64,000 bases of DNA, taken from NCBI GenBank assembly GCA_030428565.1, contig JAUIDR010000001.1, positions 1-64,000 on the forward strand. Direction: 5' to 3'. Below are positions 28,047 to 39,499 of this stretch, piece after piece. Below the pieces are notes generated by a model that saw nothing but the letters and a program-made list of their open reading frames with translations, made no database searches and had not been told where the DNA came from. This DNA is from Alphaproteobacteria bacterium. GTDB taxonomy: Bacteria; Pseudomonadota; Alphaproteobacteria; UBA7985; JAUIBT01. Made by a program: the position numbers and the translations under genes. Each line of letters begins with the position of its first letter. The first letter of the stretch is position 1.

Positions 28047-29711
28047 ATGACGCAAGCAGACTACATCATCGTTGGCGCAGGCTCGGCAGGTTGCGCCATG
28101 GCCTATCGCTTGTCCGAGGCTGGCGCGTCTGTCTTGATCATCGAGTTTGGCGGCAGCGACGTCGGGCCCTTGATCCAGATGCCCGCCGCTCTGTCATACC
28201 CCATGAACATGCCGCGCTATGATTGGGGCTATCGCAGCGAACCGGAACCGCATTTGGGCGGTCGTCGCCTGGCCACACCCCGCGGCAAAGTCATCGGCGG
28301 TTCGTCCTCTATCAACGGCATGGTCTATGTTCGAGGCCACGCTGGCGACTACGATCACTGGGCTTCGACCGGGGCCGACGGCTGGTCCTATGCGGACGTA
28401 CTGCCCTACTTCAAGCGCATGGAGCATTGGCACGGCGCCGCGCCCGACAGCGAAGAAGCCGCATGGCGCGGCACCGACGGCCCGCTGCACGTGACACGCG
28501 GCCCGCGCCGCAATCCGTTGTTCCATGCCTTTGTCGAAGCAGGAAAACAAGCCGGATACCAGGTGACGCCAGACTACAACGGTCGCCAGCAAGAGGGCTT
28601 TGGCCCCATGGAGCAGACCGTCTACAAGGGCCAGCGCTGGTCCGCTGCCAACGCCTACCTGAGACCCGCACTAAAACGCGATAACTGTCAGATGCTGCGC
28701 GGTCTGGCCCGCAAGGTGGTGATTGAAAATGGCCGCGCCGTCGGCGTTGAAATCGAGCGTGGCGGCAAGGTCGAGACCCTGCGGGCGGGCAAGGAGGTCA
28801 TCCTGGCCGCCTCGTCGATCAATACGCCCAAGCTCTTGATGCTGTCGGGTATTGGGCCTGCCGCCCACTTGGCCGAACATGGCATTGAGGTCATCGCTGA
28901 CCGCGCCGGGGTCGGCCAAAACCTGCAGGATCACCTGGAACTTTACCTGCAATTTGCCAGCAAGCAGCCGATTACGCTTTTCAAATACTGGAATCTTCTG
29001 GGTAAAGCCATGATTGGCGCGCAATGGTTGTTCACACGCACGGGTCTGGGGGCTTCTAACCAGTTTGAGAGCGCCGCCTTCATCCGTTCACAGGCAGGCG
29101 TGAGCTATCCCGATATTCAATACCACTTCTTGCCCATCGCTGTGCGCTATGATGGCCAAGCGGCTGCCGAGGGACACGGCTTCCAGGCCCACGTAGGCCC
29201 CATGCGCTCGCCCTCGCGTGGCAGCGTGACACTGGCCTCTGCCGATCCCAAGGAAGCCCCCAAGATCCTGTTCAACTACATGAGCACCGACCAGGATTGG
29301 GAGGATTTCAGACGTTGCATCCGCTTGACGCGTGAAATCTTTAGCCAGGACGCCTTTAAACCCTATGTGAAGTTCGAAATTCAGCCCGGCGACGACGTAC
29401 AATCGGACGACGCTTTGGATGATTTCATCCGCGAGCACGTAGAAAGCGCCTATCACCCTTGCGGCACCTGTCGGATGGGACGGCGCGATGATCCTGGCGC
29501 CGTAGTCGATCCTGAGATGCGGGTCATCGGCGTTGATGGGCTGCGCGTCGCCGATAGCTCGATCTTTCCGCGCATCACCAACGGCAATTTGAACGGTCCG
29601 TCTATTATGACCGGTGAAAAAGCCAGCGATCATATCCTGGGCCGCGCGCCGCTGCAGCCGTCTAATGCCGAGCCCTGGAACCACCCCGATTGGCAGAACC
29701 AACAGCGTTAG
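28047..29711 (+). CDS. betA: Choline dehydrogenase
   Basis: This GMC-family flavoenzyme oxidises choline to betaine aldehyde and on to glycine betaine, passing electrons to the respiratory chain. The 554-residue protein starts [20 protein letters not shown] (FAD motif). GMC signature 1 is [18 protein letters not shown], signature 2 is [17 protein letters not shown], and the catalytic histidine lies in [13 protein letters not shown]. The C-terminal [19 protein letters not shown] matches BetA. It ends the bet operon before a terminator at 29773-29807. Confidence 0.96.
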
Positions 29712-34405: not shown

Positions 34406-35134
34406 CTATCCACAACGTAGATCAATAATGCGATTGCGGCTGTTCAGATCAATGTTCAAGCGATTTGGGTTCAAATCCAAAGTCACGGGTTGGCCCGGAC
34501 GGATGATGCGCACCAAGGGGCTTTGACGCACAAAGGCGGGCAAACGATTGACGCGACGGCCCAGGAAGTCGCTGAGTATCTCTTTGCCGCAGCTTTCCGG
34601 GCTGGGAGTCGACGGTGGGCTTGGCGGTGCTGGTGGCACCGGCGGCGCGTTAGGATCGACACAGTTGCCGCTGAAGCAATCTTGCAAAGCGTGGCGGTTT
34701 GCGGTTGTGGCTGGCAGGCTCGCGCCCGGGCAAGCGCCCGGCTCGAAAGAATAGCGGCCGTTTTCAAACTTCATGAATACGATAATCCGCTGTTCATCAG
34801 GGTAGGAACCGCACCAAGGCCCAGCGCACTTGGGTGTCACCGGAACGATAAAGCTCTGGCGCTGCTCTAGGCCAGCAGGGCCGATACCGCGACCTGAAAA
34901 GCGGAAATTGACCGTCGGACGCGGTACGATGTTGTTGAGCGGTAGAGGCTCCAAGGCTTCGAAGCGGCCTTGGAAGATGTAATAATTTTCCGGCGCCTCG
35001 TCGTATTGATTAAAACTGGACTGGGCTGACCCAGGCAGACACGACAGCGCAAGCGCCTGCCCCGCTATCGTCAAGGTCGCCAGACCGGTCGCAACCGCGC
35101 CGACGAACTTGGTTAGAGTTTGAGATATTGGCAT
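34406..35134 (-). CDS. Secreted protein with I78-type protease-inhibitor domain and possible NTR-like module
   Basis: The 242-residue protein has a signal peptide (MPISQTLTKFVGAVATGLAT, cleavage after GQALA). Residues about 183-242 match the I78 peptidase-inhibitor family: RIIRPGQPVTLDLNPNRLNI and the terminal RNRIIDLRCG. Residues 159-180 are a Pro/Ser linker (PPVPPAPPSPPSTPSP). Residues 30-157 carry six cysteines and a pattern recalling TIMP/NTR OB-folds: YYIFQGRFEA, then FRFSGRG, then CGSYPDEQRIIVFMKFENG and GACPG. I78 inhibitors block serine proteases. The I78 call is firm; the NTR-like reading is a remote resemblance. ATG 35134 follows GGGAGAAG. Confidence 0.78.
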   Translation of the reverse strand: MPISQTLTKFVGAVATGLATLTIAGQALALSCLPGSAQSSFNQYDEAPENYYIFQGRFEALEPLPLNNIVPRPTVNFRFSGRGIGPAGLEQRQSFIVPVTPKCAGPWCGSYPDEQRIIVFMKFENGRYSFEPGACPGASLPATTANRHALQDCFSGNCVDPNAPPVPPAPPSPPSTPSPESCGKEILSDFLGRRVNRLPAFVRQSPLVRIIRPGQPVTLDLNPNRLNIDLNSRNRIIDLRCG

Positions 35135-38344: not shown

Positions 38345-38491
38345 CGCGGCAAAGCTGATGGGGAATCGAAGGTTACAACCCGAGCCAATCTGACAAAACA
38401 GCAAGTGGTGACAGGGGCGTGAGCCTATGCTTATTTGGAGTCGCACGGTCCCTCGGACGACCTAACTTGCTGGAAGGAACTTCAGACACTC

Positions 38492-39499
38492 ATGCCTGAA
38501 ACTATGCGCATTTTGAGCATCGATGCCGGTGGTGTTCGTGGCCTCTTGCCTGCACTGCTGCTCAGCGAAATCGAGGCACGGACGGGCAAGCAGATTTGGC
38601 AGCTGTTCGACCTTGTGACCGGCACGGGAACCGGCGCTTTATTGGCGATTGGCTTGACCGTCCCTGCCCGCTCTGGCAAGCCCCTGCCGGCTGCCAAACT
38701 CCAGACCATTTTCGACCAGCCCAAGCGCTCCTTGTACCGGCGGACCTGGCTTCGAAAGTTCGCAGCGCATTTGCGCGGCGTGCAACCCAACTACTCAAAC
38801 AGCAATCTGCGCGTTTGGGCCCAGCATCACTACATGGACACAACACTTTCTGAAGCCAAGACCGGGCTCTTGCTCCCAGTCTATGATCTTGAGCGGCGTC
38901 AGCCCTATTTTTTCAAAAGCTGGAAAGCGCAGGGCCAACAGCTCAAAGATAAGTCCGAAATCTACCAAGACCGGAACTTTAGGGTCCGCGATATGGTCGG
39001 GGCTACCATGGCCGAGCCGGGCCTGTTTGACCCCAAAATCATTGGCTCGCAATCGGGCAGGCGCCTGACGGTCATCGACGGCAATTTGTTTGCCGCTCAT
39101 CCGGGCCTTTGCGGCCTGGTGTCTTCACACCGTCTGCGCCCGGAAGCCAAGACCTACCGCATGGTCTCGCTAGGGACTGGCCAGGATACCAAGGGCGTCA
39201 GCCTTTTGCAGGCGCGCGGCTGGGATAGCCTGAAATGGCAAAAGCAAATGCTGAATTTGGCTCTGGATGGCATGCAGGGTTCGATCGATTATCAACTGCG
39301 TGAAATCCTGGGGCCGGAGAACTATTTGCGGGTCAATCCTGAGCTTGCCTTGCGCAAACCGCTGCGTGGCCCTGATGATCTGCGATTGATCCACCGTGAC
39401 GCTGTGCGCAAAGCAGCCATGGGCGCTATCGAAAAAGACCCTATCTTCTCGACTATCCTTAGCGATCTCAATCGGGTGGCTTCGCCCGCCGTGCCTTAG
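38492..39499 (+). CDS. Patatin-like protein lacking the nucleophilic serine
   Basis: With ATG 38492 the 335-residue product starts MPETMRILSIDAGGVRGLLP, with the patatin oxyanion-hole motif (DGGG-x-R) present as DAGGVRG. The nucleophile elbow, GTSTG in active patatins, is GTGTG (44-48): residue 46 is Gly, encoded GGA. The second catalytic element, usually DGG, is DGN (196-198), so Asp196 survives. ATMAEPGLFD replaces the usual ATSAAP. Overall length and order match the bacterial patatin group, but hydrolysis by the Ser-Asp dyad should be impossible. It is probably a pseudo-enzyme. The frame is intact and uses neighbour-like codons, so it is not an evident pseudogene. GGAAGGAA lies 14 bases upstream. 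Confidence 0.8.
   Translation: MPETMRILSIDAGGVRGLLPALLLSEIEARTGKQIWQLFDLVTGTGTGALLAIGLTVPARSGKPLPAAKLQTIFDQPKRSLYRRTWLRKFAAHLRGVQPNYSNSNLRVWAQHHYMDTTLSEAKTGLLLPVYDLERRQPYFFKSWKAQGQQLKDKSEIYQDRNFRVRDMVGATMAEPGLFDPKIIGSQSGRRLTVIDGNLFAAHPGLCGLVSSHRLRPEAKTYRMVSLGTGQDTKGVSLLQARGWDSLKWQKQMLNLALDGMQGSIDYQLREILGPENYLRVNPELALRKPLRGPDDLRLIHRDAVRKAAMGAIEKDPIFSTILSDLNRVASPAVP

Follow-up and report, generated by a model that had tools for sequence, protein, structure and literature searches.

A secreted alphaproteobacterial protein that joins an I78 protease-inhibitor domain to a six-cysteine module of an unannotated, probably NTR-like family

The stretch of alphaproteobacterial DNA analysed here (64,000 nucleotides of contig JAUIDR010000001.1; hereafter the window) contains a minus-strand gene for a secreted protein that consists of two parts. 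The locus raises the question of what the N-terminal part is and what it contributes to an inhibitor-like C-terminus. The preliminary description had read the protein as a two-headed inhibitor, in which an I78 domain is joined to a possible TIMP/NTR-like domain, the two perhaps aimed at serine proteases and metalloproteases. Its placement of a secreted open reading frame at 34406–35134 is exact: the frame of 242 codons plus stop begins with an ATG at 35134 and ends with a stop codon at 34406–34408, a signal peptide is seen, and the fusion is conserved in the genus. The features of the locus are as follows.

34406–35134, minus strand: whole open reading frame, 242 amino acids plus stop; a fusion of the N-terminal module (N-module) and an I78 domain, with fused orthologues L006 and L007.
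35048–35134, minus strand: signal peptide, residues 1–29, with putative cleavage after Ala29 (QALA↓LSC; AxA↓L-x-C context in the family).
34661–35047, minus strand: N-module, residues 30–158, an unannotated and probably NTR-like family, delineated from homologues, cysteine conservation and comparison with NTR profiles.
34592–34660, minus strand: Pro/Ser-rich linker, residues 159–181, recognised from the sequence and differing in length and sequence among orthologues.
34409–34591, minus strand: I78 inhibitor domain, residues 182–242, with Cys182 and Cys241, identified by PF11720 and by sequence and Foldseek matches to AFUEI (3w0d).
34460–34495, minus strand: predicted protease-binding loop GQPVTLDLNPNR, residues 214–225, placed by aligning the domain with AFUEI and further I78 members.

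The fused gene is present in all three genomes of the genus examined, and full-length copies in JAUIBT010000007.1 and JAUIHE010000127.1 (L006 and L007) are 71% and 83% identical to the window's protein, respectively. Since the whole fusion is kept in both orthologues, the domain order is not due to chance. The pN values are approximately 0.07–0.15 in both domains against pS values of approximately 0.65–0.78 that are near saturation, and this pattern points to purifying selection on both halves. The Pro/Ser linker lies between the halves at about residues 159–181, as had been described, and is less constrained (pN 0.22–0.29). A mis-called reading frame or a chance fusion is ruled out by the conservation in the two orthologues together with the purifying selection.

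The export signal is equally well conserved. Numbered relative to Cys32, the family alignment has Ala at −3 in 47 of 49 sequences and Leu at −2 in all 49. The invariant Leu two residues before the conserved Cys and the conserved AxA that precedes it indicate that the mature protein probably starts with Leu-Ser-Cys or close to it. In this conserved A-x-A↓L-S-C context, Cys32 is the third residue past the likely cleavage site, and the earlier placement of a Cys directly after the signal peptide has to be corrected accordingly. A lipobox, for which Leu is usual at −3 and a small residue expected at −1, was also considered for the fused protein and the N-module family; this lipoprotein reading was rejected on the basis of the residues at −3 and −2 and of the Arg, Lys or Thr found at −1 in four members.

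The C-terminal part is an I78 domain of the AFUEI/potato-inhibitor-I type, as the preliminary description had recognised for the last 60 residues. Residues 182–242 match PF11720 with 42 bits against a curated cut-off of 23.6 (E 1e-10), covering profile positions 27–65, and AFUEI is the only significant sequence match in the PDB (3w0d, E 5.3e-5, residues 179–241). Foldseek also places 3w0d best (E 8.6e-3, probability 1.00, TM 0.65 on the target) for a full-length model that is of low confidence overall, with a pLDDT of about 52–67 in the I78 region. The entries listed after it are eglin c and CI-2, mostly in subtilase complexes (probability 0.97–1.00 for these matches). The entire domain, its two cysteines and the T-x-[DE]...RLNI loop included, aligns with AFUEI, an Aspergillus elastase inhibitor. 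However, AFUEI is a single domain of 68 residues with Met at the P1 equivalent, whereas the domain studied here has Leu at P1 and stands behind another module. In the window's order, I78 also occurs in standalone bacterial proteins (L017, L018, L022 and L023) that share the domain and the loop and pass the gathering score, but these are short, have N-termini that look lipoprotein-like by eye, and lack the N-module.

Alignment of the I78 proteins, combined with the anatomy of potato inhibitor I, assigns Thr218 to P2, Leu219 to P1, Asp220 to P1′ and Arg225 to P6′. All four residues are retained across the three orthologues, and the loop Thr (P2) and Arg (P6′) are invariant in the nine aligned I78 sequences. 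In rBTI, the potato-inhibitor-I loop has the same arrangement of P1 followed by Asp at P1′ (PMC3115953). The Leu at P1 suggests that the targets of this half may be subtilisin-, elastase- or chymotrypsin-like serine peptidases.

The N-module carries six cysteines (32, 103, 108, 135, 153 and 158), which are invariant wherever their column is aligned (43–46 sequences). Pfam and NCBIfam searches with the module and its relatives matched no model. Standalone, short, secreted relatives occur in the window's order; a second family of Alphaproteobacteria, labelled f25, has homologues in 38 of the 149 genera sampled, and few were found elsewhere. No further relatives were found in viral contigs and plasmids, and four weak phylum-level matches (L080–L083) were inspected and judged spurious. 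Every standalone relative read lacks an I78 domain downstream in the same protein; as the module occurs in f25 genomes without this partner in the same chain, it probably has a function of its own there. In three genomes of the window's order (G008, G009 and G010), an N-module relative and an I78 gene lie on separate contigs, and the window's genus thus carries in fused form two genes that are found apart elsewhere. A tandem pair of N-module genes is present in genome G694 (contig C4, 116884–117813; L078 and L084), and the C-x-G-P-W-C motif is altered to CQGGGC in the second copy.

The motifs cited for a TIMP/NTR-like N-terminal part are all present, with QGRF at residues 55–58, Cys108-Gly109, RIIVFMKFENG at 116–126 and the later Cys135. 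The TIMP/NTR models PF00965 and PF01759 matched none of 37 family members at E values up to 10. Since searches with both models across the genomes of the phylum also gave nothing over the cut-off, a hand-written consensus representing a bacterial CxC protein, which matches PF01759 at E 1.6e-4, was used as bait for NTR relatives. The profile of the eight bacterial CxC proteins fetched (L085–L092) matches TIMP-2 at 2e-6 and is therefore a sound yardstick. These eight are secreted proteins that resemble TIMP/NTR, and the only annotated one, L086, is called hypothetical.

The N-module profile aligns with the CxC profile over approximately 100 columns, starting at the first cysteine. With 37 sequences, the score is 25.3 when the signal region is included and 19.6 when it is removed, the latter against a highest value of 19.8 in 200 shuffles. 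With 46 sequences, hhalign gives a score of 31.9 (P 6e-5, 109 columns) against a yardstick made of the eight CxC proteins plus the hand-written consensus row; as controls, segments taken from unrelated neighbouring families reach at most 18.1, and part of the N-module family reaches 22.4. Removal of the consensus row lowers the score to 25.8, or to 21.5 once realigned. Restricting the comparison to occupied columns gives 22.8, which none of 400 column shuffles reaches (highest 19.6), and with the cysteines masked the score collapses to 16.5. The hhalign probability ranges from 7 to 64% depending on the set, and the alignment is full-length and Cys-dependent.

AlphaFold2 modelling of the N-module from three orthologous sequences yielded a pLDDT of 60 and the main elements E-E-E-E-E-H. 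This strand order is compatible with the N-TIMP topology and with the five-stranded OB barrel plus C-terminal helix expected of NTR modules. Foldseek found no significant structural match for this model and is therefore uninformative. The resemblance to TIMP/NTR proteins (PF00965, PF01759 and L085–L092) comprises the N-terminal Cys region, the predicted strand order, the weak profile similarity, a Cys-Gly followed by a hydrophobic strand, a later Cys and a C-terminal helix. The module differs from them in having Leu for Cys1, an extra C-x4-C (103/108), a C-terminal C-x4-C (153/158) and no Pfam match. The proposed NTR/TIMP-like OB-fold is plausible in view of the full-length profile similarity above controls and the compatible strand order, against which stand the low model confidence and the Foldseek search without a significant match. 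A remote relationship to NTR/TIMP-like proteins, with the N-module as a divergent NTR-like (OB-fold) domain, is likely but unproven.

A metalloprotease-inhibiting head fares worse. TIMPs bind the zinc of their targets via the α-amino and carbonyl groups of the N-terminal Cys1 (PMC3679795). All 49 sequences have Leu at the Cys1-equivalent position of the N-module, with the conserved AxA site just before it, which rules out zinc chelation of the TIMP type (MEROPS I35) and makes action as a TIMP-style metalloprotease inhibitor unlikely. The original proposal, in which a TIMP-like N-module inhibits metalloproteases and the C-terminus inhibits serine proteases, can draw on the weak profile similarity to bacterial NTR/TIMP-like proteins; against the missing N-terminal Cys and the failure of the Pfam TIMP/NTR models in all 37 members, we regard it as very unlikely, and its metalloprotease-directed half is not supported.

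Gene neighbourhoods bear on the remaining explanations. The fused gene has azlC/azlD, DUF454 and a topoisomerase IV/gyrase A subunit gene that looks like parC as its neighbours in the window, none of which is informative. The standalone gene of f25 directly follows rppH in a conserved rlmH-gpmI-M23 (EnvC-like)-ctpA (S41)-rppH block. Among 16 f25 loci (L099–L114), in which the N-module gene lies at about 5.4–6.5 kb of each oriented locus, ctpA was recognised upstream by motif in 12 and rppH by clustering in 15; the S41 identity of ctpA was confirmed by Pfam in the one f25 locus checked. Judged from gene order, the block is a lead towards envelope proteolysis, short of functional evidence. The N-module gene of f3 genomes (L115–L117) has a gene for a GMC-type oxidoreductase close downstream, and another GMC-type member is located in the window at 28047–29711, some 5 kb away from the fused gene. 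The reading frame at 38435–39499 of the window, adjoining the topoisomerase gene, looks patatin-like (DAGGVRG start and GTGTG motif).

The frequent presence of ctpA upstream in the f25 block, and its S41 assignment, would fit an N-module that inhibits or regulates the adjoining CtpA, and the fused protein would then be a dual serine-protease inhibitor. However, the block also contains unrelated house-keeping genes, and the ctpA homologues of the window's genome lie on other contigs than the fused gene; we consider this reading highly improbable. A broader version, in which the N-module represents a new bacterial NTR-like family regulating an envelope protease such as CtpA and the I78 fusion is a two-headed inhibitor of two protease classes, seems improbable as well. 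The N-module might instead be an unrelated six-cysteine β domain with a house-keeping role in the envelope, to which I78 was later added in one genus. The lack of a significant structural match, the dependence of the NTR similarity on cysteines and the f25 block with rppH, rlmH, gpmI, M23 and ctpA are in keeping with this explanation. It is opposed by the full-length, collinear alignment with the CxC NTR proteins, by the failure of all 400 shuffles to reach the score, and by the gap between real-family controls (at most 18.1) and the observed 31.9, and we retain it as a tentative possibility.

The explanation that we favour, with a probability of roughly 0.55, is one in which a divergent NTR-like module, most likely without activity against metalloproteases, serves to tether or direct an exported I78 inhibitor. 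The I78 domain would inhibit serine peptidases of the subtilisin, elastase or chymotrypsin type in the canonical, substrate-like manner, with Leu219 (P1) and Asp220 (P1′) presented on a loop that Arg225 and a Cys182–Cys241 disulfide hold in place. The partner of the N-module would be a component of the cell envelope or extracellular, and binding to it would place the inhibitor there. One chain would thus couple location and inhibition by fusing secreted proteins that are separate in related families. The disulfide pairing, the inhibition and the target class of the fused protein are predictions from sequence, and we infer the tethering role of the N-module from the absence of Cys1 and from domain logic.

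A related combination exists in animals, where WFIKKN/GASP proteins combine an NTR domain with those of the Kunitz, WAP and Kazal types and so carry NTR and serine-protease-inhibitor domains in a single chain (PMC3427181). They differ from the protein described here in their animal origin, their much larger size and the use of Kunitz/WAP/Kazal domains in place of I78. Literature searches for an I78–NTR pairing found no description; the earlier statement that this pairing was undescribed thus stands for I78 and NTR in the literature searched, and has to be qualified by the WFIKKN/GASP precedent for NTR with serine-protease inhibitors. The architecture of I78 plus N-module appears to be new, with parts of known kinds. 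The gene fusion connects a protease inhibitor with a secreted family that lacks annotation and is widespread among Alphaproteobacteria, and this link provides a concrete clue to the role of the N-module family in proteolysis, whether in the envelope or outside the cell. Should the NTR fold prove true, the family would represent an NTR relative without the Cys1 used by animal TIMPs.
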